From NCBI RefSeq assembly GCF_003363015.1, contig NZ_QRAP01000002.1, positions 551,756 through 615,755 on the forward strand: a stretch of DNA of 64,000 bases, written 5' to 3'. A model generated the notes under the pieces. The model searched no databases and was not told where the DNA came from. It saw nothing but the letters and a program-made list of their open reading frames with translations. This DNA comes from Enterobacillus tribolii. Its GTDB lineage: Bacteria; Pseudomonadota; Gammaproteobacteria; Enterobacterales; Enterobacteriaceae. A program made the translations under genes and the position numbers. Below, piece by piece: positions 21,038 to 52,540 of this stretch. Positions within the stretch are counted from its first letter, which is position 1; each line of letters starts with the position of its first letter.

Positions 21038-21075
21038 TGCCGCAACGTACCGAAATACGTTGCGGCACTTTTTTA
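21038..21075 (+). terminator. Rho-independent terminator of the peptide genes
   Basis: Perfect 12-bp stem TGCCGCAACGTA / TACGTTGCGGCA, 6-base loop, then CTTTTTTATT. It lies between the peptide genes and the convergent ABC-exporter gene and overlaps the latter's stop codon. Confidence 0.93.
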
Positions 21076-35666: not shown

Positions 35667-37003
35667 CACGCCTTCTCCGTTACGCTTCCCCATCCGGAAT
35701 CGTTCAGCCAGGGGCACAAACGTACGCTGACGGGGCGAACCTGCGGCGCTGTATGAAATTCGATATCAACGGAGAACTCGCCGTTTCCTTCGTTGGCGGC
35801 GCGCAGTTTTTTAATTTCTTCCAGCGTGACCGTTTTTTTATACAGCAGCGCATTCTGCGAACCGTAAATGCCGATATGCAGGTGATCGAGATCGGGTGCG
35901 GTATCGTCAAAGTCCGTCTTGCCGATCTTCAGCATTTTCTTGTTGTAGGTAATCTGCTTATTCAGCCACGCAGCCTCATCTTCCGGCGGAGTAGCGAAGT
36001 AGCAGACATGAGCCGGCCCGACGACCTCCGGCAGCACCGTTTTTGCCGCGAGGCAAATTCCGGCCCGGTATTCGAACTGCCTGATGCTGCGCTGCGTACC
36101 GCAAGCGTAGCGTCCCAGATCGGCCGGTGTTTCCTCTATGCCCAGAACCGTGCGGACCCGCGTTTTGGAAATCTTGTCGCGCTCCCACCAGGCCTGTTCG
36201 ATGGCGCCTTCTTTTTTCGCGTCGTTGTTATGATCGCCCCATACCTTGTTGCACTCCTTACGTTGGTAGTAGTGCCACACCAGCGGCTTATGGGGGTGAT
36301 AAATGTCGTAGCCGTGGGTGAAGGCGCGCACCGCCATGGCGATCTCTTCGCCGGAAAAGAAGATCTGCGGATCGTTGGGCACGTCTTGCAGGAATGAGGC
36401 CGCAGCGAAAATAAACCCGCCGGCCAGGTAGCTGCCGCGCAACGGCGCGTCTTCTTTTATCGGCGCGGAGGTCAGCATCGGAAAACCGTCCGCGACGAAC
36501 TCGCGAAACAGCATACGGCTGACGTAGAACTGGCGGTTTTCTTCCTCGCCGGGCGTATACGGCGGCGGGTAGGCGCTGAGGATTGGTTTATCGCTTTGCG
36601 TAAGAAGCTGCCGCCACATCGCGATGAGTTCCCGATCCCAATCTTCGGCAAAGCGACAGTGCGAGTCGATTTGCAGAAAATAGTCTTCCCCGTCGTACAG
36701 GGTTTCCGCCAGGTGGCGCGCCCAGCAGGCGCCCTGACTGGCGTAATAGTGAACGCTGATAACGTCTATCCGCGCCCCGTTGTAGTGATAAAACGAGGTC
36801 GCCCGCCCATCGGTGTGCGTAGTTTGTGTATGGGTGAAACCCGCGTCCGTGAAGACCGAGAGATCTTCGTCATCCTGCCAGCAAACGGCAATGTGCAGTC
36901 GCTGCGGATCGGACGCGCTTTCCGCCATATTTTTTAGCGTGGGGATCAATTCCGGATCACGGTAACTGGCCACGCTGATAAAAATACCCGATCTGTTATC
37001 CAT
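35663..37003 (-). CDS. GT60-like GlcNAc-transferase family glycosyltransferase
   Basis: 446 residues. The opening IFISVASYRDPELIPTL, the nucleotide-sugar/metal motif FLQIDSHCRF (Asp113-Ser-His115) and LAGGFIFAAASFL match the GlcNAc-transferase family related to Skp1 hydroxyproline GlcNAc-transferases. The last 110 residues (from about 335) form a separate, beta-rich domain I do not recognise. There is no signal peptide, so it acts in the cytosol. It is embedded in the left T6SS operon, between a pilus adhesin gene and an OmpA-domain gene, and is overlapped by the latter by 4 bases. A glycosylated pilin, adhesin or VgrG is the natural guess for its target. Confidence 0.85.
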   Translation of the reverse strand: MDNRSGIFISVASYRDPELIPTLKNMAESASDPQRLHIAVCWQDDEDLSVFTDAGFTHTQTTHTDGRATSFYHYNGARIDVISVHYYASQGACWARHLAETLYDGEDYFLQIDSHCRFAEDWDRELIAMWRQLLTQSDKPILSAYPPPYTPGEEENRQFYVSRMLFREFVADGFPMLTSAPIKEDAPLRGSYLAGGFIFAAASFLQDVPNDPQIFFSGEEIAMAVRAFTHGYDIYHPHKPLVWHYYQRKECNKVWGDHNNDAKKEGAIEQAWWERDKISKTRVRTVLGIEETPADLGRYACGTQRSIRQFEYRAGICLAAKTVLPEVVGPAHVCYFATPPEDEAAWLNKQITYNKKMLKIGKTDFDDTAPDLDHLHIGIYGSQNALLYKKTVTLEEIKKLRAANEGNGEFSVDIEFHTAPQVRPVSVRLCPWLNDSGWGSVTEKAW

Positions 37004-37053: not shown

Positions 37054-38040
37054 CTAATCAATGTTGAAGACAATTTCCGCCTTGGCATTGAACGGGCCGG
37101 GCTGCGGCGCTTCGGTGCTGGTGGAAAACAGCGTGGCCTTCCACTGATATTGCGCGTTGCTGCCGCTGGCGACGTTATACAACTGCTCGCTGCTGGTGCT
37201 GTCGTTCATCCTGATCGTCTGGGTTTTTCCGTCGGTGATCCGGATGCCGAGACGATCCTTATTGCCGCTTGCGTCGGTAACCTTGATGTAGGTGGAGTCC
37301 GCGGATGCGTCTGCGGCGGTCATCATGGCCTTGGCGGAATAAGTGCCATAATCGGTCCGGCAGTTCACGAAGAAGTTAAGCGGTTTTTCGACGCCGCTTT
37401 TTAAGGCGCCGGCCGTAACCTGAGTGAAGTCGATAACCTTGGATTGATCAACGGTACATACCGGCGTGCTGATGATGGTGATGTTGCCGATATTCAAACG
37501 CGCATAGGCTTCACCCACGGCATCGGTGTTGAAGTAGTTAAAGGCGCGCAGCGCGGAAGGCAGCACGAGATCGCCGGCCTTATTGCTGAGCACCAGATTG
37601 TCGGTCAGCTTGAAAAACTGCGCCCGGAAGTAGGAACCGGCGGCGATTTTCATGATGCCGCGGTTGGTCGGTAGCTTAACGGTGGTAACGGAAGGGAAGT
37701 TCCCCGTAGCGCCCAGGCCGTTATTCCACAGCAGCTTGACGCCGATGCCCGGAACATTGGTTTCATAAATATACGTAGCCGGATTTTGGCCGTTCAGTCC
37801 TACGGTGGATTTACCGTAAGGCGTCCCGTTGTCGCAGCCGTATTCGAGCTGAACGCCCAGCGCATCGCTGTCATAGGATGCAATGGGGTTTGATGCATCG
37901 GCCGGGGCGTCAGCGGCAACCCGGATAATCTGGCTGCCGATGGCTTGATCCCGCAGCGCGCCAGACTCTAACAGACAGAGAGCCGCCGCTTCAGGGATCG
38001 CTATGGCGCCGAGAGCCAGAACAATCAGATTCCTTATCAT
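37054..38040 (-). CDS. Fimbrial tip adhesin-type protein
   Basis: 328 residues: a signal peptide ending near PEAAA; an N-terminal domain (about 22-205) with a Cys pair (ALCLLES, YGCDNG); and a C-terminal pilin domain beginning VCTVDQSKVIDFTQV, with its second Cys in VNCRTDYG and the alternating C-terminal strand AKAEIVFNID used for chaperone/usher donor-strand pairing. This is the two-domain plan of FimH-type adhesins. It follows tssA by 3 bases in the left T6SS operon, whereas the pilin, chaperone and usher genes are on the right arm. The ligand is unknown. Confidence 0.85.
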   Translation of the reverse strand: MIRNLIVLALGAIAIPEAAALCLLESGALRDQAIGSQIIRVAADAPADASNPIASYDSDALGVQLEYGCDNGTPYGKSTVGLNGQNPATYIYETNVPGIGVKLLWNNGLGATGNFPSVTTVKLPTNRGIMKIAAGSYFRAQFFKLTDNLVLSNKAGDLVLPSALRAFNYFNTDAVGEAYARLNIGNITIISTPVCTVDQSKVIDFTQVTAGALKSGVEKPLNFFVNCRTDYGTYSAKAMMTAADASADSTYIKVTDASGNKDRLGIRITDGKTQTIRMNDSTSSEQLYNVASGSNAQYQWKATLFSTSTEAPQPGPFNAKAEIVFNID

Positions 38041-38043
38041 CTC

Positions 38044-39159
38044 TTACTCCTTTTCGCTCTTTTCCCCATCCAGCATGGTGATGATTTCAGGGGGGTACAT
38101 TTTCAGCAAATCGGCAAAATTCTTACCGATGCTCTCCTCTGCATATTTCAGCATCAACACTACGGGGCTGCTGGGTTCGGTCATCGCAAACCAGCTGCGT
38201 ACTTCCTGCAGACGGCGCAGTGCATCCGTCCGGTTTTCAATACCGCGTCGCGCTTGTTGTTTGGCGGGGCGGGGAATAGAGGGTGCGGCGGCGGCCTCTT
38301 CGGCGACGTCATCGTCGCCATGCTCCGCCCCGGGGGCTTCCGTCTCTTCGACCGGCTCCGCATAGTCCGCGTCATCGGTATAGGCTTGTTCGGCCGGCAC
38401 GGCTGCTTCTTCCGCTTCCGAGGTGTCGGCGAATTCGTTGGAGAAGAGGCGCAGTATGCCGTCAATCAGGCCAAGCAACGGGGCCTCGAAGGCGAGCGAC
38501 TCATCCAGTATTTTTTTGATGTCGAGCAGATAGCGCCGGGCGCGTGTCAGCACGGCGATTTCCTGCGCCGCGTTGGTATGCCAGTCGTGGATCAGGGCGG
38601 CGACGGTGGTGTCCGCCAGCGCGCCTTCTTCACGCGGGATGACGTGAGCTTTTTCAAAATCTTTAATGGAGATTTGCAGCCCGGCGGCCTTAGGCAGCGG
38701 CTGGTTACGCAAATCGGCCAGCAGGCCGTTGGTATCTTCCAGCTCGGCGAACGCATTGGCGCGCATGAACGGTTCGAATTCGCCTTCGTCCATGGTTTGC
38801 GGATGGAGGTCGTCGGGCCACCGGCGCAGTAATTCCCGCAGCGCTTCCAGACCTTCGCTCAGCGCCACGAGGCCTTTCTGGCGGATACGGCAACGCATCA
38901 GGATGATGATCAGGCGCACGTCTTTACTTTTTTGCAGCAGCGATAAACATTCCCGTTCAACTTCCGACCAGTTGACCGGTTCCGCCGCTTCGAAAAACGT
39001 GCCGTATTCCGCGCCCAGCTTGGGCTGGAGTTTACCCAGCAGCATGATAAATGCAGGGTCGTATTCCAGGCTTTCCCCGCATGGATGCTCGCCGGGGATC
39101 GGCTGCATCACGCTCTGGTAGTAACCCGTAATTTCTGTCGTCATTGTCTCGTTCATCAT
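38044..39159 (-). CDS. tssA: T6SS baseplate/sheath-cap protein TssA
   Basis: 371 residues with an N-terminal ImpA_N domain (GEHPCGESLEYDPAF; MRCRIRQKGLVALSEGLEAL), an acidic low-complexity linker (about 265-320) rich in Glu, Ala and Asp, and a short C-terminal domain (PSSPVVLMLKYAEESIG). TssA primes baseplate-to-sheath assembly in the cytosol. Lengths and linker fit the shorter TssA class. The fimbrial adhesin begins 3 bases after its stop, so the pair must be cotranscribed. Confidence 0.93.
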   Translation of the reverse strand: MMNETMTTEITGYYQSVMQPIPGEHPCGESLEYDPAFIMLLGKLQPKLGAEYGTFFEAAEPVNWSEVERECLSLLQKSKDVRLIIILMRCRIRQKGLVALSEGLEALRELLRRWPDDLHPQTMDEGEFEPFMRANAFAELEDTNGLLADLRNQPLPKAAGLQISIKDFEKAHVIPREEGALADTTVAALIHDWHTNAAQEIAVLTRARRYLLDIKKILDESLAFEAPLLGLIDGILRLFSNEFADTSEAEEAAVPAEQAYTDDADYAEPVEETEAPGAEHGDDDVAEEAAAAPSIPRPAKQQARRGIENRTDALRRLQEVRSWFAMTEPSSPVVLMLKYAEESIGKNFADLLKMYPPEIITMLDGEKSEKE

Positions 39160-39237
39160 GAATCGCTTCTTGTTATTATTCCTGCCCGGCGCATATCTGC
39201 GCGGAACACGGCGAACACGTCGCCGTGCGTTAATGCG

Positions 39238-40263
39238 TTAATACTGATAGGTTTCCGGTTCAAAGCTCATGCCCGACACGGGCGTTTCGCGCTCCTCGCG
39301 ATCCAGCCAGCTGGTGTAGCCCAGTTGATGACTGCCATCCAGATTCGCCGTGGGAACTTCCTCGCCCGCCAGCACCAGCTGAACGTCCCAGGCATACTCA
39401 AAACCGACGAAGTTACGTACCCACTCCCGCAGTACCGGCAGGTCGTTGCCCCAGGGGCTGAAACGCACGTACTGGTCGAGGTTGAGCGGCCCCAGAATCA
39501 GTTTGAATTTATGCTGACGGTCCTGCACCGTATTGCCGAGGATCGCGCCGTCGCCCAGCAGCATGGCGCACTGGTCATTGCCTAAAATGGTTTGTTCTTT
39601 CGGCTCAAGGAAAATCCATTGCAGTTCGTACTCTTCCATCTGCACCGGCAGTTGGAAGTAGTAGTGCAGCGCGCCCAGCAAGCCCGCCGGGTTACGCGCT
39701 TCGCGCACCAGATGGGCGGAAGAGGCCAGGCGGGCATGGATCGGCAGGCACGATGAGGTCAGTTCGGCAGGGTCGATCCCCGAGAGGCTGCCGATGTAAA
39801 ACGAAAAACGTTCGTCGTCTTTTCTGTCCAGCGAGGCGGTATCCTGCGACACGAACCAGGCCCGGTAAAACAGGGAAAGCGCCCGGTGATGGAAGATGTC
39901 GAGGAAGTTGGTCAGCGTGTGGTCGTGCTGCTCATGGCGCGAGTAGGCCTGCTCGGAAAAGTGCAGCGGCATGGCGCCCTGCGCGCCCCAGACGCCCAGG
40001 CTGTACAGCTGCAGCTTGAGCTTATCGCCCTGCCAGCTGAGCCGGGAGATTTCACGCGGCGAAAAAGCCATATGCGCGGTTTGACCCAGGCGGAAAGGCT
40101 CCTGGGAAGGCAACTCAGCCTTGCCCGGCGCCGGCATATCGGGAAGTCGCGCGGCGATGGCACGCATGATGCTGAGGAACCCGGAATTCCACGGCGCGTC
40201 TTCGTCGTACCAGGCATCCAGATTCAGGGACAAATCGCCGCTCTGCATTGCGTTCCGTTCCAT
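39238..40263 (-). CDS. tssG: T6SS baseplate protein TssG
   Basis: 341 residues. The TssG/ImpH features are present: FRLGQTAHMAFSPREIS near the N-terminus, NFLDIFHHRALSLFYRAW, and the C-terminal LILGPLNLDQYVRFSP. It pairs with TssF in the baseplate wedge. The start at 40263 overlaps the tssF stop by one base (TAATG); the much longer upstream frame is a non-coding extension full of arginine and was rejected. Confidence 0.94.
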   Translation of the reverse strand: MERNAMQSGDLSLNLDAWYDEDAPWNSGFLSIMRAIAARLPDMPAPGKAELPSQEPFRLGQTAHMAFSPREISRLSWQGDKLKLQLYSLGVWGAQGAMPLHFSEQAYSRHEQHDHTLTNFLDIFHHRALSLFYRAWFVSQDTASLDRKDDERFSFYIGSLSGIDPAELTSSCLPIHARLASSAHLVREARNPAGLLGALHYYFQLPVQMEEYELQWIFLEPKEQTILGNDQCAMLLGDGAILGNTVQDRQHKFKLILGPLNLDQYVRFSPWGNDLPVLREWVRNFVGFEYAWDVQLVLAGEEVPTANLDGSHQLGYTSWLDREERETPVSGMSFEPETYQY

Positions 40264-42143
40264 TATAGCGCTCCCCGCCTCCCGGTCCGGGCGCCCCAGC
40301 GCGCGATGAATCCGCGTTGCATGGAGTGCAGCTCCGTCTCGGTGAAGATGTTGATGGCGGCGTGGCGGGAGAAGTAGTTCTCCATAATGAGGCCGAACAA
40401 ATAGGGGCTGATGCCGGAGAAGCCGTCCTCGTCTACGGTCAGGATGCAGCGTACGCCGCGGCCGTAGACCAACAGGCCATCGCCGGGAAGGCGGCGTACT
40501 ACCGGTTCGGTTTTGCATCCGACGATGCTGTTGATTTGGGTAATGGACTCCATATCGGCGCTGTCGGTAAAGAGCTTAAGCATGTTGCGTAAGGATTCGC
40601 CGCCGACGGAATGTTCCATGTCCGACAGCGGCAGGTAGTTAAAGCTCAGCTGACGGATCAAACGCCAGGCAGCTTCGCCGGTGGCGAACGGCGGGCGCGG
40701 TACGCTCGGCGGCGTGACGAAGGTAGCGCCTTCAATCGGCACCGCGTCGGTCATCGTCAGGTCAAAACTGCCGCTGCGGGTGATCAGCCGGGGCAGGTCG
40801 CGGTTGGTGACCATTGCCTCAACCAGCAGGTAGCGGATGTGGTCGCCGTACGGCGCTTCAAGCTGATCGACCAGGGAGATGAACACTTCCGTGCCGAGGT
40901 AGGATGTCCGGGTATCGTATTTTCGTTCCGTATTGCCCTTGGTGCGCGGGTCCCTTCTGACGGAGAAATAGCGGCTGAAGTTGCCGGCGTCGCTGTGCCG
41001 CGTCTGATACAGGGGGTTAAACACCACCTCTTCGCTTTTTTCCGCCTGCTGGCCCAGGACCTTATCGACGGAAAACACCTCGTAGTCCAGCGGCCGGCTG
41101 CGGTCGGGAACGATGTGGAAGTTATTCAGCGCGCGGTTCACTTCGATGCGGTCTACGCGTTTGGGGAACAGGTTAATTACCGGCGTACAAAACAGCATGA
41201 AGCGTGAGGCATCAATGTGGCCAATCAGATCCTGTGGCAGCTTATCCAGCAGAATGATGATTTCGGCTTCATTGGTCTGATTGTTTTTCAAACCTTCAGC
41301 CAGTTGGGTCAGCGTGAAGAAGTAGAAACGCTCGCGACAGCAGATGTATTCATGGATCAGGGTATGCCCGTGGAACATGTTCCATGCCAGCGGCAGCAGG
41401 GTCTGATCGGGGTCAAGGCCTTCGAACTTCAGGGGCTGGTTGTTGACGATCCGGTACTGCGAATCGTCGCCGCTGCCGGAGCGAACCACAACGGCGACAT
41501 GGCTGTTATGCAGGAGTTCGAACGTATGCGAGACGATACGCTCGTCGCCCTGGATATAGAAAGGCAACTGATCCAAACCATTCAGTTCGGAGAAAACGGT
41601 TTCCCCCTGAATACGCAGCTTAATACGCAGCGCGCCCTTCAGGCGGTTGTGCGCAATGCGGTATCCTTCCAGGTTCGGCAGGTCCGGCGGCACGGAAGTC
41701 AGACGCGCGTCGGCGATTTCCAGCGGCCACAGGGTAACGCTCTGGCTGTTGCGGAACTCGCAGCGCGTCATCTCACCGGGCAGGATACGGCTGAAAAAGG
41801 CGCTGTCCTTGGGAATACGATACCCCTGGGTCAGGTCGCCTTCTTTCTGATTGGGTTTGAGCTGCACCACGCCCATGGAAGGGGTCGGCGCATTGTAGTT
41901 TGGGTAAACGATATCCAGCAGACGCTGGGTGAATTTAGGAAATTCGGCATCCAGCTTTATCTGCGTACGGGCGGATAAAAAACAGAATGCTTCGATCAGG
42001 CGCTCTACATAAGGGTCGGCGACATCGATACCGTGCATTCCTAACCGGCCGGCTATCTTCGGGTGTTTCTCGGCGAACTCACGCGACATTTCCCTGATAA
42101 ACGTCAGTTCCCGGTTGTAATAATCAAGAAAATTGTGATCCAC
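40263..42143 (-). CDS. tssF: T6SS baseplate protein TssF
   Basis: 626 residues with the classical TssF opening (YYNRELTFIREMSREFAEKHPKIAGRLG), the block DPYVERLIEAFCFLSARTQ, and TLLPLAWNMFHGHTLIHEYICCRERFYFFTL in the middle. Starts with GTG after AGGACA. It is the first gene of the left T6SS arm, expressed from the 660-base divergent region it shares with clpV. Confidence 0.95.
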   Translation of the reverse strand: MDHNFLDYYNRELTFIREMSREFAEKHPKIAGRLGMHGIDVADPYVERLIEAFCFLSARTQIKLDAEFPKFTQRLLDIVYPNYNAPTPSMGVVQLKPNQKEGDLTQGYRIPKDSAFFSRILPGEMTRCEFRNSQSVTLWPLEIADARLTSVPPDLPNLEGYRIAHNRLKGALRIKLRIQGETVFSELNGLDQLPFYIQGDERIVSHTFELLHNSHVAVVVRSGSGDDSQYRIVNNQPLKFEGLDPDQTLLPLAWNMFHGHTLIHEYICCRERFYFFTLTQLAEGLKNNQTNEAEIIILLDKLPQDLIGHIDASRFMLFCTPVINLFPKRVDRIEVNRALNNFHIVPDRSRPLDYEVFSVDKVLGQQAEKSEEVVFNPLYQTRHSDAGNFSRYFSVRRDPRTKGNTERKYDTRTSYLGTEVFISLVDQLEAPYGDHIRYLLVEAMVTNRDLPRLITRSGSFDLTMTDAVPIEGATFVTPPSVPRPPFATGEAAWRLIRQLSFNYLPLSDMEHSVGGESLRNMLKLFTDSADMESITQINSIVGCKTEPVVRRLPGDGLLVYGRGVRCILTVDEDGFSGISPYLFGLIMENYFSRHAAINIFTETELHSMQRGFIARWGARTGRRGAL

Positions 42144-42239
42144 TTATCTGTCCTGTAAATTCCATTTCGATTACACGCTATTCATTTTGGTTTTCATCGT
42201 GTGAAAGACTGCTGTGTAGTCGCACACGTTAAACTAAGG

Positions 42240-42264
42240 CAGGTCAGAATATTAAAGTGACCTG
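42240..42264. promoter_or_regulatory. Inverted repeat CAGGTCA-N11-TGACCTG
   Basis: Perfect 7-bp arms, 11-base spacer, about 100 bases upstream of tssF. Symmetry about one helical turn apart suits a dimeric regulator; which one is unknown. Confidence 0.5.
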
Positions 42265-42267
42265 AAT

Positions 42268-42297
42268 GTTAATTTCGGGCTTAATTCCGAAATTAAC
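42268..42297. promoter_or_regulatory. Inverted repeat GTTAATTTCGG-N8-CCGAAATTAAC
   Basis: Perfect 11-bp arms with an 8-base loop and no T-run, immediately beside the previous inverted repeat. Could be an operator or a transcript hairpin. Confidence 0.5.
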
Positions 42298-42803
42298 GCA
42301 CATGTATTGATATAGGTAATTACCACGTTCTCCAGAGTCCGAATTGGAAATAACCATTCTAATACTTGCTAAAACGCGGCGAATAGCCGTTGCTGGATAT
42401 TTGCATCTCGTAAAAATCTGACGATTGCAGTGATGTTTCTTATCATGTAATGTGAAGCAGGTTCACTTTCCTCCATTTTTTGGAATATATCATGACGAAA
42501 TCAGTGACTCAACGTCATTATAAAATGGTTGTGTTTGTGGATCATTGTTGTATGTATTTTAATTGTGATAATGCCATTAAAAACAATGGCTTAAATTCAA
42601 TTAAATTATCTATTTAAGAATGATGTCCGGCTGTTATTCCTAAAAAGCCAGAGTTGAAACAGTTAGTGTTTTATTTTTCTGATTATTTTAATTAGCATGC
42701 CAAAAGTAAAAGGACATTTAGTCGTTCTGGAATTATTGTAATTAAGGTATTAGCAAGCTTCGCAATATTCAGAATGATCCAAACCACAAGGGCGAGAAGC
42801 ATC

Positions 42804-45488
42804 GTGGCGATAACAAGACAAAACTTATTTGGGAAACTTGACACTTCCCTTTTTAAAAGCATTGAAAGTGCAACTACACTTTGCAAGTTACGCGGCAATC
42901 CTTATGTCGAAATGGCGCACTGGCTGAATCAATTGTTTCAGCAAGAAGATAATGATATCCGACATATTTTACGCCATTTTGAAGTTGATGCGGAATTGCT
43001 GGAGCGTGACTTCTCACAGGCGCTGGCGCGTTTACCCGCCGGTGCGAGTTCTATTTCCGACTTTTCCTATCACATTGAGCTGGCCATTGAGCGCGCGTGG
43101 ATCTTCGCCAGCCTGGAATGCCAGGACAGCCGTATCCGCAGCGGTCATTTGCTGATCGCAATATTGACGACGATGGAACTTCGTCGCGCGCTGTTTTCCA
43201 TCTCTTCGACCTTCGAGCGTATTTCGTTGGAGCATCTGACCAAAGACTTCGGCTATATCACGCGCGAATCGCCGGAAGCGGAAGAGAGCGCCAATGACGG
43301 CTCCCTGCCGGGCGGCGCCGGCGTTCCCGGCGAAGCCAGTAATGCCATCGGTTCCCCGAAGGCGGGCGGCGGTCTGGCGCAATATTCTACCGATCTCACC
43401 GCTCTGGCGCGTGAAGGCAAGATCGACCCGGTATTGGGTCGCGACAAAGAAATCAACACGATGGTGGATATCCTGCTGCGCCGCCGCCAGAACAACCCGT
43501 TGCTGACGGGCGAGGCGGGCGTAGGGAAGACTGCCGTGGTGGAAGGGTTGGCGCAGGCCATCGTCGCGGGAGAAGTTCCGCCGGCGTTGTCCCGGGTGCG
43601 TTTGCTGACGCTGGACGTCGTGGCGCTTTCCGCCGGCGCCAGCATGAAAGGCGAGTTTGAAGCGCGCCTGAAAGCGGTGCTGGAAGAAGCCGTGGCTTCT
43701 CCGGACCCGGTAATTCTGTTTATTGATGAAATTCACACCCTGGTAGGCGCCGGTGGTGCCGCAGGGACCGGCGATGCCGCGAACCTGATGAAACCGATGC
43801 TGGCGCGCGGTCAACTGCGCACTATCGGCGCAACTACCTGGAGTGAATTTAAACGTCATATTGAGAAAGATCCTGCGCTGACGCGCCGCTTCCAGGTATT
43901 GCAGGTGGAAGAGCCGGACGAAGGCACGGCGATTTCCATGCTGCGCGGTTTGCTGCCGGTACTGGAGAAGCACCACGGCGTGTGGATCATGGACGAAGCG
44001 TTGCGCGCAGCGGTACGCCTGTCGCATCGTTATATTCCGTCCCGCCAGCTGCCGGACAAAGCCATCAGTCTGCTGGATACCGCCTGCGCCCGCGTTGCGG
44101 TTGCCCAGCACGCGGCGCCGGATGAGTTACAGATACTGCGTTTTCATACCAAAACCGCCCGTACTGAGCTGGCGCTGGTAGAAAAAGCGGTCAACTTCGG
44201 TAAAGAAGACGGCGAACGCGCGCAGGGTATTCAGAGCGCTATCGCAGAACATGAAGCCGAGGCGGAGCGCCTCGATCAGCGCTGGTCGCAGGAGCGCGAT
44301 TTGGTCGCCGCTATCGTTGAAATTCGTCAGGCTTTGCAGGAGGCGGTAGCGCAGGAAGAGCGGGATGAAGAAGAAATCAGCCGCCTGCAGGCGCAGCTGA
44401 ACGAGCAGGAAACTGCGCTCAGCGCCGCCCGTAAGGAGCAGCCGCTGGTACAGGCGGAAGTTAACGCCGGCGTTGTGGCCTCTATCGTTGCGAAGTGGAC
44501 CGGCATTCCGGTAGGTCAGGTGCTGAAAGACGATCGTAACGCCGTGCTGGAACTGCCGCAGCGTCTGGCTGCCCGGGTTATTGGTCAGCGTCATGCGCTC
44601 GACCGCGTATGCGAAAGCATTCAGACCGCGCGTGCCGGTTTGGCCGACCCGCGTAAGCCGTCCGGCGTATTTATGCTGGTGGGGCCGTCCGGGGTAGGGA
44701 AAACGGAAACCGCGCTGGCGATTGCCGAGCAGTTATATGGCGGCGAACAGAACCTGATCACCATCAACATGAGTGAATATCAGGAAGCGCACACCGTTTC
44801 TTCGCTGAAAGGTTCCCCGCCGGGGTACGTCGGTTATGGCGAAGGCGGCGTGCTGACCGAAGCGGTGCGTCGTAAGCCGTACAGCGTGGTTTTGCTGGAT
44901 GAAATCGAAAAGGCGCATCCGGATGTTCATGAGTTGTTCTTCCAGGTATTCGATAAAGGTTCGATGGAAGACGGCGAAGGGCGCCAGATTGATTTTAAAA
45001 ATACAATAATATTATTAACCAGCAACGTTGGCAGTGACGTATTAACCAACGTATGTGCCGATCCGGACACCATGCCGGAGGAAGACGGTCTGCTGGCTTT
45101 ATTGCAGCCGGAATTATTGAAAGTTTTCCCGGCGGCATTTTTGGGACGGGTTAGCATTGTTCCTTATTTACCTCTGGAGCAAAGCTCACTGCAATACATT
45201 GTTCGTCTGCATTTGAACCGTGTGGTGAGCCGCGTAAAAGAGCAACATGAAATATCACTTAAATACAGTGATGAGCTGGTGCAACACATCGTTGACCAAT
45301 GCCCGGTTGCAGAAACAGGGGCAAGGATGCTGATTCGTTTTATTGAGCAGAATATTTTGCCCAAGATTGGAAGCATCATATTGAATCAGGAAGGTTCATT
45401 GTCTAACCACGAGATGAATATGACGTTCTCGGCGGAGAAGGGGTTAGATATTTTCATGCAACGGGAGGAGGAATTACTCGCAAGTTAG
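42804..45488 (+). CDS. clpV: T6SS sheath-recycling AAA+ ATPase ClpV (TssH)
   Basis: 894 residues from a GTG at 42804, which gives an N-terminus aligned with Pseudomonas ClpV1 (FGKL, then CKLRGNPYVEMAHW). An ATG 30 bases upstream is in frame but less likely. Two AAA+ modules: Walker A GEAGVGKT and Walker B ILFIDEIHTL in the first; GPSGVGKT and VVLLDEIEKAHPD in the second; a coiled middle domain between. It disassembles contracted TssB/TssC sheaths in the cytosol. It leads the right arm, with the pilin gene 68 bases downstream. Confidence 0.96.
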   Translation: MAITRQNLFGKLDTSLFKSIESATTLCKLRGNPYVEMAHWLNQLFQQEDNDIRHILRHFEVDAELLERDFSQALARLPAGASSISDFSYHIELAIERAWIFASLECQDSRIRSGHLLIAILTTMELRRALFSISSTFERISLEHLTKDFGYITRESPEAEESANDGSLPGGAGVPGEASNAIGSPKAGGGLAQYSTDLTALAREGKIDPVLGRDKEINTMVDILLRRRQNNPLLTGEAGVGKTAVVEGLAQAIVAGEVPPALSRVRLLTLDVVALSAGASMKGEFEARLKAVLEEAVASPDPVILFIDEIHTLVGAGGAAGTGDAANLMKPMLARGQLRTIGATTWSEFKRHIEKDPALTRRFQVLQVEEPDEGTAISMLRGLLPVLEKHHGVWIMDEALRAAVRLSHRYIPSRQLPDKAISLLDTACARVAVAQHAAPDELQILRFHTKTARTELALVEKAVNFGKEDGERAQGIQSAIAEHEAEAERLDQRWSQERDLVAAIVEIRQALQEAVAQEERDEEEISRLQAQLNEQETALSAARKEQPLVQAEVNAGVVASIVAKWTGIPVGQVLKDDRNAVLELPQRLAARVIGQRHALDRVCESIQTARAGLADPRKPSGVFMLVGPSGVGKTETALAIAEQLYGGEQNLITINMSEYQEAHTVSSLKGSPPGYVGYGEGGVLTEAVRRKPYSVVLLDEIEKAHPDVHELFFQVFDKGSMEDGEGRQIDFKNTIILLTSNVGSDVLTNVCADPDTMPEEDGLLALLQPELLKVFPAAFLGRVSIVPYLPLEQSSLQYIVRLHLNRVVSRVKEQHEISLKYSDELVQHIVDQCPVAETGARMLIRFIEQNILPKIGSIILNQEGSLSNHEMNMTFSAEKGLDIFMQREEELLAS

Positions 45489-45556
45489 TTTAGGAAGTAG
45501 GAATAACAGGATTTAACTGGATTTTTTATAGTAGGAAACTAGAGGATTTATTAAAC

Positions 45557-46090
45557 ATGCGTAATTTTAAACTTGCTATTTGTGCACTGGCTATGTCTGC
45601 TGTATCTACCGCTGCTTTCGCTGAAGGTCAGGGTCAGGTTCGTTTCGAAGGTGAGCTGATCAACGAAACCTGCAAACTGGCTGACGACAGCAAAGACATC
45701 CTGGTAACCCTGCCGAAGCTGTCTACCAAGACGCTGGACGCAGAAGGCAAAGAAGCCGGTTCTAAAGGTTTTGACATCAACGTTATCGACTGCCCGAGCA
45801 GCATCACCAAAGTGGCCGCTCACTTTGAAGCTATCGGCAGCTCCGGTGTGAACTCTGCAACCGGTAACCTGAAGAACGCCTACACCGCCGCTGATAAAGC
45901 CGGCAACGTAGAAGTTCGTCTGTATGACGCTGATGAGTCTCACCTGAAGCTGGGCGACACCGGCCAGTCTTTCACCGTTAAATCTGACGGTACTTCTACC
46001 CTGCGTTACTACGGTGGCTACTATGCAACCGCAGCGACCACTGCAGGTAAAGTAGAAGCTAAAGCTCTGTTTACTCTGGCTTACGAGTAA
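45557..46090 (+). CDS. Major fimbrial subunit (type 1-like pilin)
   Basis: 177 residues: a signal peptide ending STAAFA, the pilin domain with Cys pair (INETCKL and VIDCPSS), and the aromatic C-terminal strand ALFTLAYE. Codon choice is extremely biased to optimal codons (CTG, AAA, GAA, GGT), as in hcp, which marks it as abundant: the shaft subunit. GAGGA lies 9 bases upstream. It is inserted between clpV and tssB, followed by chaperone, usher and a minor pilin. Confidence 0.92.
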   Translation: MRNFKLAICALAMSAVSTAAFAEGQGQVRFEGELINETCKLADDSKDILVTLPKLSTKTLDAEGKEAGSKGFDINVIDCPSSITKVAAHFEAIGSSGVNSATGNLKNAYTAADKAGNVEVRLYDADESHLKLGDTGQSFTVKSDGTSTLRYYGGYYATAATTAGKVEAKALFTLAYE

Positions 46091-46092
46091 TA

Positions 46093-46143
46093 AATCAGTC
46101 GTAGTTTGACTGATTCCGGAGCAAATAATTATTTTTGCTCCGG
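46093..46143 (+). terminator. Two tandem hairpins after the major pilin gene
   Basis: AATCAGTC / GACTGATT (8-bp stem, 7-base loop) is followed at once by CCGGAGCAAA / TTTGCTCCGG (10-bp stem, 8-base loop), both perfect, without a T-run. Such pairs protect the pilin message and reduce read-through to the chaperone and usher genes. Confidence 0.7.
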
Positions 46144-46216
46144 TTAAAGGACATTACCTGCAGCCCTGAATGGGTTGCAGGTAATTAAATACGCTATCGC
46201 GTTCAGGTTATTGGGA

Positions 46217-46996
46217 ATGGAAATCGGTAATCTAATGTTTTCTAAAATAACAGGTATATTTTTCACGTTCGCGCTGTTGACGAATGTTGCATCCGCCGGA
46301 ATGACAATTACCGGAACGCGCATAATTTTCCCCAGCGACGAGCGTGAAGTCACCGTAAGAACGAATAACCGCGGGGCGTCGCCTTCACTGGTCCAGGTAT
46401 GGGTGGATGACGGGAAAGTTGGCGGAGATATTAATAAGGTTAATACGCCTTTCGTCGTAACGCCGCCGGTTTATCGTGTAGAACCGGGTAAAGGGCAGAG
46501 CGTACGTCTGGTCTATAATGGCATGTCATTGCCTCAGGATCGCGAATCCGTCTTTTGGTTTAATATGCTGGAAGTTCCGCCGGTAGACAAAAAAGCAAAA
46601 AATGCCGACGTGCTGGAACTGGCATTCAGAACGAGAATTAAGATTTTTTACCGTCCTTCTTCATTGAAAAGCAGCAGCATAAATGATTTAGATAAACTCA
46701 CCTGGCAACAAGTGAATACTAATAAAGGGCGTGGGATTAAAGTTTCCAACCCAACGCCTTATTACGTCTCCTTTGAGTCCGCCTCCATTGAAGCGGGTAA
46801 CCGAAAGTATGCCTTAGAGACCGAAATGGTCGAGCCGTTCGGAAGCAAAACGTTCAGCGTATCGGGCAATCAATCGGTAAGCACAGCAATCAACAGTATT
46901 GATATTAATATACTGAACGATTATGGCGCGACGGTAAATCAAAAGCTTGTTGCACAAGGGGGCGGGTTTATTCATCGCAACGCCATAAAAGGTTGA
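46217..46996 (+). CDS. Periplasmic pilus chaperone (PapD-like)
   Basis: About 259 residues: a signal peptide (ITGIFFTFALLTNVASA), then a two-domain immunoglobulin fold. TRIIFPSDEREVTV and the conserved VYRVEPGKGQSVRLVY are typical, as is ESVFWFNMLEVPP; the C-terminal half has the KLTWQQV and NPTPYYVSF blocks. It holds pilin subunits by donor-strand complementation and delivers them to the usher. The start may instead be the ATG at 46235; both give a signal peptide. Confidence 0.92.
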   Translation: MEIGNLMFSKITGIFFTFALLTNVASAGMTITGTRIIFPSDEREVTVRTNNRGASPSLVQVWVDDGKVGGDINKVNTPFVVTPPVYRVEPGKGQSVRLVYNGMSLPQDRESVFWFNMLEVPPVDKKAKNADVLELAFRTRIKIFYRPSSLKSSSINDLDKLTWQQVNTNKGRGIKVSNPTPYYVSFESASIEAGNRKYALETEMVEPFGSKTFSVSGNQSVSTAINSIDINILNDYGATVNQKLVAQGGGFIHRNAIKG

Positions 46997-47090
46997 GTTC
47001 CGTATACGTAATATCTCTTGTTTCAGGTATAGGGTAAATGCCTGGGTGCGTTATGAGAAATAATGTATCCGTGTGAAAGGAGTCTGGGAA

Positions 47091-49754
47091 TTGAGATCTT
47101 TAGGAATCAGTAAACGTAGACGGTCAAAAAAAGCTGAAGCGCTATTTTCATCTGCGATGAAAAAACTGCTTATTGCTTCATTGGGCGTATGCAGCCCGAT
47201 GGCAATTGCCCAGGAAAGCGAATCGGTTTTGGCTAATAACGCTGGCGAGGATGCCGGTGTTCCGACCATCGAATTTAACGCCGGGTTTTTACGCGGCGAT
47301 AACGTGGATGTGTCCAGATATTCCGAGGGTAACCCGGCTCCCGCAGGGACTTTTTCGGTAACGCTGAGCCTGAACGGAGAATACCGTGGGCAGCGCAGTA
47401 TTTTGTTCGTGCCGGTATCCGGTAACAGCAGCGCACAGCCGTGTTTTACACGTGATGAACTGATGGCGCTGGGGATTATTATCCCGGCGGAGAAAGGACA
47501 AAGCATTGCATTCGGTGAAGGGCGCCAGTGCGCCACGGTCGATAAATGGGTTGCAGGCAGTACCGCGAATTACGCGGTGGGCGATCTGCACCTTGATCTG
47601 GTGGTGCCGCAGGCCTTCCTGACCAAGCGTCCGCGCGGTTATACCGATCCAAACTCCTGGAACGAAGGCGTGACGGCAGCATTGCTGGACTATAACAGCA
47701 ACTTTTACACCCAGCGCAATCAGGGGAAAGACCTTAACAGCGCAAACCTGGGGGTAACGGCCGGCTTTAACTTCCAGGGATGGCGTCTGCGTAAACGCAT
47801 CAATACCTCCTGGACCAACGAATCCCACCGCCATACCGAGAGCCTGTACGGCTACGTCCAGCGGGACATTACGGCGCTGAAAAGCCAGCTGACGCTGGGC
47901 GACAGCGTCACCAGCGGCGATCTGTTCGACAGCCTCAGCCTGCGCGGCGTGCAGTTGCAGTCTGACGACCGGATGTTGCCGGAAGGGCTGAGAAACTACA
48001 TTCCCGTTCTGCGCGGTACGGCGGACACCAACGCCCGCATACGTGTCACCCAGCGCGGACAGACAGTCTATGAAACCGTCGTTCCTCCGGGACCGTTTGA
48101 AATTTCTGACGTGGGCGCCCTGGGATACGGCGGCGATCTGGAAATGACCATCACGGAATCGGATGGCCGCGAACGTACTCAGGTAATCCCGTTCTCGGCG
48201 CCGCCGATGCTGTTGCATGCCGGCGTATCGCGCTTCGGCTTTGCCGCCGGTGAGTTGCGTGACGAGATGATCAAAAAACGTCCGAAAATGGTGCAGGGCT
48301 TCTATCAGTACGGCATCGGCAACATGTACACCCTGTACGGGGGCGGGCAGTGGAGCGAGGACTATCATGCTCTGGCGATCGGCCATGCCTTTAACACGCC
48401 GATCGGCGGGATCTCAATGGACGTAACGCGCGCGCACACCAAGCTCAAAGACGGTAAAACGTCGGAAGGCAACAGCGTGAACGTCGGCTTCAGTAAGTAT
48501 CTGGCGCCGACCGATACGGATGTGACGCTGGCCGCCTATCGTTACTCATCCAGCGGTTTCTACTCTTTCCGTGACGCCGCGATTGAGCGTTATGGTTCCA
48601 AGAACAACTATACCAGCACCGACTACCGGACCAAGCAGCGTCTGACGCTGACTATGGGACAAAATCTGGGCGATATCGGTCGTTTAACGTTCTCGGGCAG
48701 CCTCTATAACTATTGGGACGATCGTTCGACGACGAAACAGTACACGATGACCTTCAACCGTTCAGAGCGTTACTTTGCCTGGGCGCTGTCGGCTTCGCGT
48801 TCTTCCAGCAGCGACGGCCGCAGTTCCAATGATTTCATGCTGTCTTTCAACGTTCCGCTGGGACGTTACAACAATGCGCAGCGGCCGGCATTCAGCTCGC
48901 TTTACACCAACATGGGCTTTGATAACCAGGGCAACATGTCGATGCAGAGCAGCGTGGTCGGCAGTCAGGGCGAGAACAGTGAACTGACGTACAGCGTTGG
49001 GGGAAGCCTCAACAGAACGAAACGGGTTTCCGAGCAGAGCGCCGACGTTAACTTTGCCCAGCGTAAGAACAAGCATTCTGATCTGAATGAATCGCTTAAC
49101 GGCAGCGTTAACTACAACACCGGATTCGGGCAACTCGGCTCCACGGCGTCGGTCAGCAACAAATCCAAGCAGTTGTCCCTGTCCGCCAGCGGCAGCGTCG
49201 TGGCGCACCGTGGCGGCGTAACGCTGGGGCCGCGTCTTGGCGACAACACGCCGTTCGCGCTGGTTCATGCGCCGGGCGCCGGTGGGGCGAAATTGCTCAA
49301 CGGTTATGGCTCCCGGATTGATGGCAATGGTTATGCAATCATGCCGTCGCTGACGCCATACCGTGAAAACACGGTTGCCGTGAGCACGCGCGGATTGCCG
49401 GATACCGTTGACCTGATGGAAAACGAAACCATCATTATTCCGCGCGTAGGGGCGGCGGTGCCGGTGAAAGTGAAAACGATCGTCGGTGCGCCGGTGGTAT
49501 TAATCGTGCGTGATGAAAACAATGATTATTTGCCGATTGGTACTGAATTGTTTGATTCAAATAACGTTAGCATGGGAATTATTGGGCAGGGCGGTATGGC
49601 GTTTATCCGCGGATGGAATGCTGCGGAAGACTATTTATATGTTAAAGGCACCTCTGGCTCACAATGCCGGATTTATCCTGACAAAGCCCTGGCGCAAAGA
49701 ATTAACAATGCTACTGGTAATATGATTAGAGTGGAGGTCGCATGTCGTCGTTAA
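47091..49754 (+). CDS. Outer-membrane fimbrial usher
   Basis: About 887 residues. A TTG at 47091, 9 bases after AAGGAG, is the best start; ATG at 47157 (MKKLLIASLG) is the fallback. The N-terminal chaperone-binding domain (IEFNAGFLRGDNVDVSRYSEG) is followed by the 24-strand barrel with plug (TDTNARIRVTQRGQTVYETVVPPGPFEISD) and two C-terminal domains (RGLPDTVDLMENETIIIPR; GQGGMAFIRGW). The protein threads pilin subunits through the outer membrane. Its last 13 bases overlap the next pilin gene. Confidence 0.94.
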   Translation: MRSLGISKRRRSKKAEALFSSAMKKLLIASLGVCSPMAIAQESESVLANNAGEDAGVPTIEFNAGFLRGDNVDVSRYSEGNPAPAGTFSVTLSLNGEYRGQRSILFVPVSGNSSAQPCFTRDELMALGIIIPAEKGQSIAFGEGRQCATVDKWVAGSTANYAVGDLHLDLVVPQAFLTKRPRGYTDPNSWNEGVTAALLDYNSNFYTQRNQGKDLNSANLGVTAGFNFQGWRLRKRINTSWTNESHRHTESLYGYVQRDITALKSQLTLGDSVTSGDLFDSLSLRGVQLQSDDRMLPEGLRNYIPVLRGTADTNARIRVTQRGQTVYETVVPPGPFEISDVGALGYGGDLEMTITESDGRERTQVIPFSAPPMLLHAGVSRFGFAAGELRDEMIKKRPKMVQGFYQYGIGNMYTLYGGGQWSEDYHALAIGHAFNTPIGGISMDVTRAHTKLKDGKTSEGNSVNVGFSKYLAPTDTDVTLAAYRYSSSGFYSFRDAAIERYGSKNNYTSTDYRTKQRLTLTMGQNLGDIGRLTFSGSLYNYWDDRSTTKQYTMTFNRSERYFAWALSASRSSSSDGRSSNDFMLSFNVPLGRYNNAQRPAFSSLYTNMGFDNQGNMSMQSSVVGSQGENSELTYSVGGSLNRTKRVSEQSADVNFAQRKNKHSDLNESLNGSVNYNTGFGQLGSTASVSNKSKQLSLSASGSVVAHRGGVTLGPRLGDNTPFALVHAPGAGGAKLLNGYGSRIDGNGYAIMPSLTPYRENTVAVSTRGLPDTVDLMENETIIIPRVGAAVPVKVKTIVGAPVVLIVRDENNDYLPIGTELFDSNNVSMGIIGQGGMAFIRGWNAAEDYLYVKGTSGSQCRIYPDKALAQRINNATGNMIRVEVACRR

Positions 49755-50329
49755 TTAAGAAAGTGATTAGCGCTAATTTTATTGCGGCGCCTCTGTGTGC
49801 TTTCGGTATATTATTATCGCAGGCGGCATTGGCTACCTGCTCAAATACCGATTGTTCTATTGATGTTTTTTTTAAGGGTGTTTATACTGACGAAACTTGC
49901 AATATAAGCATTAATGGGGCGAGTGCCAATGAAACGGTCACTTTACCCACTTTGTCTACAGCAACCCTGAAAAAAGACGGTACTGAAGCCGGCTCCAAAT
50001 TGTTTGATATTACGTTAAAGGATTGCCCGGTCAGTCGCACGGTGACGTTATTCTTTAACAGTGATTTCTCCTCGGCGGATTCGGCAACAGGAAACTTAAT
50101 TAATAGCGTAGGTTCCGATCACAGCCAGAATGCACAAGTCCGGCTGCGGAAAGAGGATGGTGCATTAATTAAGATTGATGATGCGACAACGGGACAGGAT
50201 TATGTCATATCTCCGACAGGGGATGCTGTGACGCATCATTATACGGCGAGTTATTATGCCAAAGGCGATTCGGCCGTTACTGCAGGGAAAGTACGCGCAG
50301 CAGCGGGCGTGGAACTTGTTTATAAATGA
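49742..50329 (+). CDS. Minor fimbrial subunit
   Basis: 195 residues: a signal peptide, a CSNTDCSID segment after the cleavage site, then a pilin domain with Cys pair (DETCNIS, KDCPVS) and an aromatic terminal strand (AAGVELVYK). It resembles the major subunit (TLPTLSTATLKKDGTEAGSK is close to that protein's TLPKLSTKTLDAEGKEAGSK), a likely duplication. It has a GGAGG site inside the usher gene end. It may act as an adaptor between shaft and tip adhesin. tssB follows after 138 bases. Confidence 0.88.
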   Translation: MSSLIKKVISANFIAAPLCAFGILLSQAALATCSNTDCSIDVFFKGVYTDETCNISINGASANETVTLPTLSTATLKKDGTEAGSKLFDITLKDCPVSRTVTLFFNSDFSSADSATGNLINSVGSDHSQNAQVRLRKEDGALIKIDDATTGQDYVISPTGDAVTHHYTASYYAKGDSAVTAGKVRAAAGVELVYK

Positions 50330-50467: not shown

Positions 50468-50989
50468 ATGAGCAAAAGTAACTCTCAAAAATTTATTGCG
50501 CGAAATCGTGCGCCCCGCGTTCAAATTGAATATGACGTAGAGATTTATGGTAGTGAAAAGAAAGTTGAGCTGCCATTTATCATGGGCGTATTAGCCGATC
50601 TGTCTGGTAAGCCGCTTGAGCCGCTGCCGCCCGTCGCTGACAGAAAGTTCCTTAACATCGACATCGATAATTTCGATGAGCGTATGAAGGCAATGAAACC
50701 GCGTGTTGCATTCGCCGTTCCGAATACGCTGACCGGTGAAGGGCAACTGATGGTGGATATGACTTTTGAAAGCATGGACGACTTCTCTCCTGACGCCATT
50801 GCCAGAAAAGTGGATTCGCTGTCGCAACTGTTGGATGCGCGTACGCAACTCGCCAACCTGCAAACCTATATGGATGGTAAGGCGGGCGCGGAAAGCCTGG
50901 TCATGAAGGTACTGAACGATAAGTCGCTCCTGAATACGCTGGCTTCCGCTCCGAAACCGAAGCAGGCGGATAACGCCGACAACAAATGA
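50468..50989 (+). CDS. tssB: T6SS sheath small subunit TssB (VipA)
   Basis: 173 residues with the diagnostic ARNRAPRVQIEYDVE near the start, ELPFIMGVLADLSGKP, and DFSPDAIARKVDSLSQLLDAR. It forms the contractile sheath with TssC in the cytosol. Slightly longer than the typical 160-170. tssC follows after 36 bases. Confidence 0.96.
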   Translation: MSKSNSQKFIARNRAPRVQIEYDVEIYGSEKKVELPFIMGVLADLSGKPLEPLPPVADRKFLNIDIDNFDERMKAMKPRVAFAVPNTLTGEGQLMVDMTFESMDDFSPDAIARKVDSLSQLLDARTQLANLQTYMDGKAGAESLVMKVLNDKSLLNTLASAPKPKQADNADNK

Positions 50990-51025: not shown

Positions 51026-52540
51026 ATGGCCACTCACCACCACAACGCAAATAAAAACAGACAACAAGCCGCCACAGAGACGGTAGAAACTCAGAATGAT
51101 TTTAACGCGCTGTTGACCAAAGAATTCAAGCCGAAGTCCGAGCAGGCGAAAACGGCGGTTGAAACGGCGGTAAAAACGCTGGCAGAGCAGGCGCTCGCCA
51201 GTTCGGTAACCATTGCGGATGATGCCTACAAGAATATCGCCGTCTATATTGCCGAAATCGACCGTAAACTGTCTGAGCAGATCAACCTGATCCTGCATCA
51301 TCAGGAATTCCAGGCGCTGGAAAGCGCATGGCGCGGCCTGCATTATCTCGTGTATAACACCGAGACCGACGAGAAGCTGAAGCTGCGCTTTATGGATTTG
51401 TCCAAAGAAGAGCTGCGCCGCAACATGCGTCGCTTCAAAGGCATCGCCTGGGATCAGAGCCCGCTGTTCAAACAGGTTTATGAAGAAGAATATGGTCAGT
51501 TGGGCGGCGAGCCGTATGGCTGCCTGGTTGCCGACTATTTCTTTGACCACAGCGCGCCGGACGTTGACCTGCTGTCTTCCATCGGTAAGGTTGCCGCTTC
51601 TGCCCACGTACCGTTTATTACCGGCGCTTCCCCGGCCGTTATGCAGATGGATTCCTGGCAGGAACTGGCGAACCCGCGCGACCTGACCAAGATCTTCACG
51701 CAGAACCTGGAATATGCAGCATGGAACTCGCTGCGTCAGTCTGAAGATTCACGTTATATCGGCCTGGCGATGCCGCGCTTCCTGGCGCGTCTGCCTTACG
51801 GCATCAAAACCAACCCGGTTGACGACTTCAACTTTGAAGAAACCACCGACGGCGCCGATCACAGCAAATACGTTTGGTCCAACGCGGCTTACGCGATGGC
51901 CGTTAACATCAACCGTTCGTTCAAACACTACGGCTGGTGTACCCAGATCCGCGGCGTAGAAAGCGGCGGCGTGGTGGAAAACCTGCCGTGCCACACCTTC
52001 CCGACCGATGACGGCGGCGTGGACATGAAGTGCCCGACCGAAATCGCGATCTCCGATCGCCGTGAAGCGGAACTGGCCAAAAACGGTTTCATTCCGTTGA
52101 TTCACCGTAAGAATACCGACTATGCGGCGTTTATCGGCGCGCAGTCCCTGCAGAAACCGGCTGAATACTACGATCCGGACGCTACCGCGAACGCCAACCT
52201 GTCTGCGCGTCTGCCGTACATGTTCGCGTGTTCCCGTTTCGCGCATTACCTGAAGTGCATTGTGCGCGACAAGATCGGTTCTTTCAAAGAGCGCGAAGAC
52301 ATGCAGCGCTGGTTGAATGACTGGGTCATGAACTACGTGGACGGCGATCCGGCGAACTCCTCTCAGGAAATTAAAGCGCGTCGCCCGCTGGCTGCCGCTG
52401 AAGTTGTGGTTGAGGACGTGGAAGGAAATCCGGGTTACTACCAGGCGAAGTTCTTCCTGCGCCCGCACTTCCAGCTGGAAGGCCTGACCGTGTCGCTGCG
52501 TATGGTTGCAAAACTGCCGTCGCTGAAAGGCGCTGCGTAA
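51026..52540 (+). CDS. tssC: T6SS sheath large subunit TssC (VipB)
   Basis: 504 residues with family blocks LIDRKLS-like IAEIDRKLSEQINLILHH, EFQALESAWRGLHYLVYNTE, GEPYGCLVADYFFDHSAPDV and FLARLPYG. It has optimal codons throughout, in line with high expression. Followed by a 228-base gap with a large hairpin before hcp. Confidence 0.97.
   Translation: MATHHHNANKNRQQAATETVETQNDFNALLTKEFKPKSEQAKTAVETAVKTLAEQALASSVTIADDAYKNIAVYIAEIDRKLSEQINLILHHQEFQALESAWRGLHYLVYNTETDEKLKLRFMDLSKEELRRNMRRFKGIAWDQSPLFKQVYEEEYGQLGGEPYGCLVADYFFDHSAPDVDLLSSIGKVAASAHVPFITGASPAVMQMDSWQELANPRDLTKIFTQNLEYAAWNSLRQSEDSRYIGLAMPRFLARLPYGIKTNPVDDFNFEETTDGADHSKYVWSNAAYAMAVNINRSFKHYGWCTQIRGVESGGVVENLPCHTFPTDDGGVDMKCPTEIAISDRREAELAKNGFIPLIHRKNTDYAAFIGAQSLQKPAEYYDPDATANANLSARLPYMFACSRFAHYLKCIVRDKIGSFKEREDMQRWLNDWVMNYVDGDPANSSQEIKARRPLAAAEVVVEDVEGNPGYYQAKFFLRPHFQLEGLTVSLRMVAKLPSLKGAA

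Follow-up and report, generated by a model that had tools for sequence, protein, structure and literature searches.

How a T6SS that requires contact obtains contact with another cell is, to our knowledge, open for most systems. In the locus described here, the genes of a chaperone-usher pilus lie inside the T6SS cluster. The window (the whole stretch of DNA that was analysed, 64,000 nt) contains two divergent arms, which leave one 630-bp intergenic region. The minus arm reads tssF, tssG, tssA, tip adhesin, PF11397 glycosyltransferase, OmpA-domain protein and DcrB-family protein; the plus arm reads clpV, major pilin, chaperone, usher, minor pilin, tssB, tssC, hcp, tssJ, tssK, tssL, tssM, a 226-aa ORF and vgrG. 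All genes named in the initial annotation were identified by Pfam/NCBIfam profiles. Its placement of major pilin, chaperone, usher and minor pilin between clpV and tssB proved correct, as did that of the tip adhesin on the divergent arm, 3 bases after tssA; the adhesin ATG begins 3 nt past the tssA stop. The features are the following.

33259-33756, minus strand: DcrB-family protein, last of the divergent arm (PF08786, E=4e-19); relatives have a homologue in the equivalent position
33777-35717, minus strand: OmpA-domain protein (PF00691), a single 646-aa ORF in the window
35663-37003, minus strand: PF11397 'GlcNAc' glycosyltransferase (246 bits, cut-off 21), predicted GT-A fold
37054-38040, minus strand: two-domain tip adhesin (PF00419; AF2 model)
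38044-39159, minus strand: tssA (PF06812), 3 nt upstream of the adhesin
39238-40260, minus strand: tssG (PF06996), likely start inside the listed ORF 39238-40518
40263-42143, minus strand: tssF (PF05947)
42144-42773, no strand: divergent intergenic region, by its position the likely site of the promoters of both arms
42774-45488, plus strand: clpV (tssH; TIGR03345, 1257 bits)
45557-46090, plus strand: major pilin (PF00419; Fop 0.82)
46093-46185, plus strand: three hairpins 3' of the major pilin (gap fold z -8.4)
46235-46996, plus strand: PapD-type chaperone (PF00345, PF02753); listed ORF from 46175, likely ATG at 46235
47157-49754, plus strand: outer-membrane usher (PF00577, 493 bits); listed ORF from 47073, likely ATG at 47157
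49742-50329, plus strand: minor pilin (PF00419), 13-nt overlap with the usher
50468-50989, plus strand: tssB (PF05591)
51026-52540, plus strand: tssC (PF05943)
52769-53254, plus strand: hcp (PF05638)
53458-54027, plus strand: tssJ (PF12790)
54031-55377, plus strand: tssK (PF05936)
55377-56759, plus strand: tssL with OmpA domain (PF09850, PF00691)
56756-60634, plus strand: tssM (PF06761, PF14331, PF06744)
59144-59153, plus strand: A10 tract inside tssM, where CTS1 has its transcriptional slippage site
61404-64000, plus strand: vgrG, truncated (TIGR03361, 532 bits)

The genes tssA, B, C, F, G, H, J, K, L and M, hcp and vgrG lie in a single cluster. The contig ends at window position 64000, so that the T6SS is interrupted inside vgrG; in locus L049, PAAR and TssE lie after vgrG. 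PF04965 matches at five places in the window genome, every one on other contigs. The predicted pilus comprises a PapD-type chaperone, a PapC-type usher, pilins with the Fimbrial domain and the two-domain tip adhesin; the genome has 14 PF00577 (usher) matches overall. The window TssB shares 96% identity with its Kosakonia oryziphila counterpart. In L005 and L007 two ORFs are found where the window has one OmpA-domain ORF, the N-terminal part being a separate ORF; in a Paraburkholderia annotation this separate ORF is called DotU family and its partner OmpA. The ORF at 33777-35717 is possibly a second TssL-like pair besides tssL. Elsewhere in the window (21073-24460) a C39-peptidase ABC exporter and a HlyD-type protein resemble a bacteriocin-export pair. 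An autotransporter gene is found downstream of the T6SS cluster in L049 (10932-13841, after tssE) and in L059 (11986-14937).

The layout is real and is inherited as a unit. With the adhesin profile (E<=1e-15) 33 of 392 family genomes matched, in 20 of 154 genera and at 34 loci. The 34 best matches of the usher profile (690-1657 bits, next match 658 bits), scored on at most two candidates per genome with weaker ushers left unmapped, were the 34 T6SS loci of the same genomes; on this basis, the idea that pilus genes from this clade of ushers also stand alone in the family was rejected. The order pilin-chaperone-usher-minor pilin-tssB is kept in 34/34 family loci, the window and 33 others, and the adhesin follows tssA in 33/34 (32/33 apart from the window), which is the conservation of exact order that the initial annotation had proposed to check. 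When 33 loci were scored by script, the pilus-tssB order was found in 33, tssA-adhesin in 33, adhesin-glycosyltransferase in 32 and clpV-pilin in 31. The gap between tssA and adhesin has a median of 4 nt (n=33 loci). In the one exception, G092 (L174, L175), the adhesin is on a different contig, next to a weakly matching usher in divergent orientation, with pilus, clpV and enzyme still in place. L031 and L032 (genus g177) have kept the pilus, but clpV is missing from its place between tssF and pilin; ClpV-like genes do occur at other sites in both genomes.

The TssK profile (E<=1e-100) matched 37 genomes, namely the 33 pilus carriers and G163, G206, G257 and G283, and these four (540-549 bits) had no pilus match in the fetched stretches. 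Close relatives with the same T6SS and no pilus, which the initial annotation had named as evidence against its reading, were not among the top 32 loci by TssK score (693-989 bits): all 32 carry the pilus, the next four are those without it, and two divergent loci (452-457), L031 and L032, carry it at scores below the four pilus-less systems. Among the best 80 of 592 confirmed TssB stretches, pilus carriers included 13 enterobacterial ones, several of them on the same contigs as loci already counted, so that the two lists are not additive: Kosakonia oryziphila, Enterobacter sp. Cy-643, Dryocola, Intestinirhabdus, Yersinia aldovae, Lelliottia and Pluralibacter, and further Atlantibacter, two Erwinia, Siccibacter, Ewingella and Morganella psychrotolerans. 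Five more carriers among these 80 were Burkholderiales, and the remaining 62 had no usher match within the stretch examined. A contig search with the window usher alone gave 13 pattern matches, none confirmed; plasmid and PDB sequence searches with the adhesin gave no match.

The Burkholderiales carriers are two Trinickia, two Paraburkholderia and Cupriavidus campinensis. All five retain tssF-tssG-tssA-adhesin-glycosyltransferase and a pilin-chaperone-usher-pilin block ahead of tssB, in four with an OmpA gene between; the wider gene order is rearranged relative to the family. In Cupriavidus a single strand carries the adhesin, the enzyme, clpV and the pilus genes. A split between two transcripts is therefore frequent, but it is not what keeps the parts linked. 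The earlier claim that completion of the pilus needs both T6SS transcripts thus stands in part: the layout fits it in 33/34 family loci, but not in collinear Cupriavidus, and in G092 the adhesin is elsewhere. Independent annotation places pilus, T6SS and a GlcNAc-transferase family protein on a megaplasmid of Paraburkholderia sprentiae, and the annotation description of the Burkholderia ambifaria conjugative plasmid pBMC401 (L183) gives pilus and T6SS; on the latter a short tssF CDS adjoins a transposase. In a phylum-wide sample the adhesin profile (E<=1e-18) matched 4 of 349 genomes, a count that may understate the Burkholderiales, whose adhesins matched an earlier profile weakly, at 45-78 bits. 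The four are the window genome, G031, G510 and G582; the matches of the last two lie in ordinary, free pilin-chaperone-usher-adhesin operons with no T6SS gene match in the fetched stretches.

The phylogenetic analyses agree with a common inheritance. T6SS-linked ushers fell on one side of a branch and other ushers on the other in two trees (support 93 and 95), the first with 43 linked and 20 other ushers and the second with 28 of the 43, 14 of the 20 and three more. In the TssK tree one branch (support 99) separated 42 pilus units from 11 pilus-less units; the tree is unrooted, and therefore one gain or one loss of the pilus are both possible. The TssC tree requires two changes of pilus state where the TssK tree requires one. 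In a Mantel test on the 36 of 43 pilus units that had all eight required genes, distances of usher, chaperone, pilin, adhesin and glycosyltransferase correlated with those of TssK (Spearman 0.67-0.82; usher 0.79, glycosyltransferase 0.82), and linkage and shared ancestry contribute to these values, as they inflate the co-occurrence counts. The median usher identity between loci is 0.44.

A frozen linkage, in which a T6SS island took up a fimbrial operon a single time in an ancestor and the block has since been inherited and transferred with no functional dependence, would fit the usher branch and the conjugative plasmid of Burkholderia ambifaria. It is highly improbable given pilus genes retained in 34/34 loci despite deep usher divergence, through the Burkholderiales rearrangement and through the absence of clpV in L031 and L032, though the unrooted TssK tree also allows a pilus loss in the ancestor of the pilus-less systems.

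The median gap is 77 nt between clpV and pilin (n=31) and 93 nt between minor pilin and tssB (n=34). Terminator-like sites were found in 0/31 and 1/31 loci, respectively, and promoter-like sites in 16/31 against 17.0 expected and in 11/31 against 16.4 expected. Promoter-like sites are not in excess and terminators are nearly absent, which led us to reject an inserted block that brought its own control signals; independent control of the pilus, also named beforehand as evidence against the arrangement, likewise left no sign at these junctions. The 3' side of the major pilin differs: terminator-like hairpins occur in 13/33 loci against 0.3 expected and perfect stems in 23/33 against 0.45 expected, all expected counts being from single-base shuffles. 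The major pilin of the window has the highest optimal-codon use of 15 cluster genes tested (Fop 0.82), and the major pilin ranks first among the five pilus genes in 30/33 loci. The three hairpins after it likely serve mRNA protection or attenuation. Judged from sequence, the signals would fit a single transcript with raised pilin output; equally, tssB expression could be reduced by a terminator-like hairpin.

The glycosyltransferase was overlooked in the initial annotation, although its distribution is identical to that of the adhesin. PF11397 was found in exactly the 33 adhesin-bearing genomes of the 392 and in 0 of the 359 others, with one conserved copy per locus in 34/34 family loci. The enzyme is directly behind the adhesin in 32/33 family layouts, the remaining one meeting a contig end, and in 5/5 Burkholderiales, with two copies in Trinickia terrae; large Rhs-like ORFs adjoin it in the Burkholderiales loci L146, L148 and L149, and the P. 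sprentiae annotation there reads RHS protein. It was not found in the 12 pilus-less T6SS units examined, 8 of which include the tssA arm. A PDB sequence search gave no match. The predicted fold is GT-A, closest to polypeptide GalNAc-transferases and protein O-glycosyltransferases. The enzyme has no evident signal peptide; it is likely cytoplasmic and likely pilus-modifying. It might instead be an injected T6SS effector or a modifier of a T6SS part. This we consider quite unlikely. In its favour, the enzyme gene belongs to a T6SS cluster and keeps its position behind tssA at the G092 locus, from which the adhesin has gone; its single conserved copy, its place behind the adhesin, the correlation of its distances with TssK and the failure to find it in the pilus-less units tell against such a role.

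The adhesin consists of a receptor domain (about residues 22-185) and a pilin domain (about 187-328). The Fimbrial C-terminal domain (PF00419) was identified, and the N-terminal MrkD-like match is weak, under the Pfam cut-off. The AF2 model has pLDDT 92.8. The receptor domain is less conserved than the pilin domain in 407 of 435 pairs, with 3 of 33 rows omitted (L026, L029, L040). By comparison of the predicted structure, the tip domain is closest among solved folds to those of Abp1D/Abp2D, LpfD and MrkD, adhesins that bind host ligands or proteins.

Embedding of chaperone-usher genes in a T6SS is not new, and the prior reports escaped the initial annotation. The relevant text of PMC5813230, citing Gueguen and Cascales 2013, describes a chaperone-usher cluster embedded in the C. 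rodentium T6SS operon (CTS1) and suggests co-production. T6SS-C of E. cancerogenus likewise embeds fimbrial genes and has a poly-A tract in tssM, as described in PMC10797944, where it is found only in E. cancerogenus among 49 Enterobacter strains, the other carrier named being C. rodentium; the words 'adhesin' and 'glycosyltransferase' do not occur in the main text of that paper. Induced CTS1 outcompetes E. coli, and its tssM is read via transcriptional slippage, according to the portion of PMC4256274 on this system. The window tssM has its A10 tract at codon about 796, the place of the CTS1 site, and slippage here is putative. Of 24 other records examined (two repeat a contig), 21 have an A8-A11 tract close to this position, and L056, L063 and L064 do not; tssM is a single open frame in the window but is divided into separate frames about the tract in L008, L049 and L053. 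Fimbrial embedding and the tssM poly-A together make the window locus one of the CTS1 kind, a likeness drawn from the published descriptions. No report was found in the literature searched of the fixed place of the adhesin, the breadth of distribution or PF11397 as a third partner.

Other known associations are looser. In the sections of PMC2907695 on SPI-6 of Salmonella, fimbrial operon and T6SS come apart between serovars and are judged independently acquired. The saf/tcf and T6SS genes share one island there, but are separable and not interleaved; the window pilus is complete and more tightly embedded, as first noted, and a mere SPI-6-like adjacency was rejected, the pilus core being directly before tssB in 34/34 loci. 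The passages of PMC12469244 on Klebsiella report chaperone-usher proteins enriched genome-wide in T6SS-positive strains and describe no genes inside the T6SS cluster, unlike the window. PMC9978198 mentions T6SS cluster 3 of Erwinia sorbitola, for which the portion concerned states no function. The T6SS and fimbriae text of PMC3310003, PMC3771936, PMC10587679, PMC7545074 and PMC6153362 has no fimbrial genes inside a T6SS cluster. TasL of Vibrio fischeri is described in PMC9040878 as a T6SS-associated adhesion factor required for contact and selective killing; it is alike by description in its association with a T6SS, but is a putative lipoprotein with no chaperone-usher pilus. For the enzyme, the HMW1C part of PMC3983070 gives a cytoplasmic glycosyltransferase of Haemophilus that partners the HMW1 adhesin and acts before Sec export. 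HMW1 is however a two-partner secretion adhesin with sugars on asparagine, whereas the predicted fold of the window enzyme is nearest polypeptide GalNAc-transferases.

The locus is read here as a conserved composite of a T6SS, its own chaperone-usher pilus with tip adhesin and a PF11397 enzyme, in which the pilus would bring the firing cell to the target cell. We are nearly evenly divided on this reading, leaning slightly to doubt; it is based on layout, conservation, co-occurrence and predicted folds, from which we infer the holding of prey. The plus arm would be read as one transcript, the hairpins after the major pilin gene raising the pilin dose, and the adhesin would be translated together with TssA from the other arm. 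Before Sec export the enzyme would glycosylate the adhesin or a pilin. The pilus would be assembled by usher and chaperone, and the variable tip domain would choose the ligand. Bacterial prey, a host surface and sister cells are candidate targets of the tip, and the proposal commits to target-cell contact. Several observations tell against it: the terminator-like hairpins after the pilin (13/33 loci) would cut read-through into tssB; the pilus lacks clpV beside it in L031 and L032, whose TssK scores fall below those of four pilus-less systems; the adhesin is gone from the G092 locus while the enzyme stayed; the TssC tree needs two changes of pilus state; fimbriae can protect prey from a T6SS; and the nearest solved folds of the adhesin belong to adhesins known for host ligands. 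A stricter form, which makes a widespread T6SS subtype an obligate weapon of three parts with a grappling pilus, O-glycosylated at tip adhesin or rod in the cytoplasm by the dedicated enzyme, that selects and holds prey for the T6SS, seems unlikely.

The host-binding folds would also fit a pilus that attaches the bacterium to host or matrix surfaces, with the T6SS removing competitors at that site and both co-regulated for one niche. We find this rather doubtful. By itself it leaves unexplained that this adhesin and usher were found only with the T6SS in 392 genomes (the moved adhesin of G092 apart) and that the adhesin lies so close behind tssA.

Clustering of sister cells by the pilus, so that producers fight as a microcolony shielded from counter-attack, is very unlikely. 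According to the portion of PMC11005336 on this point, type 1 fimbriae shield E. coli from a T6SS via microcolony formation; fimbriae can thus protect prey by clustering, and a pilus need not promote killing. The E. coli of that case is the prey, however, not an attacker with its own T6SS-linked pilus, and the variability of the receptor domain fits changing foreign ligands at least as well.

Recurrence of the composite in about twenty genera of the family and, rearranged, in distant bacteria makes it likely that the pilus helps the T6SS reach its target. If the enzyme modifies the pilus, chaperone-usher pili would have a route of glycosylation in the cytoplasm, of which no description was found in the literature searched. 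The probable function of the locus is that of a T6SS equipped with a dedicated contact pilus and an enzyme that modifies protein. A whole T6SS clade whose cluster itself includes genes for an adhesive organelle and a glycosyltransferase makes prey capture testable by single gene removals.
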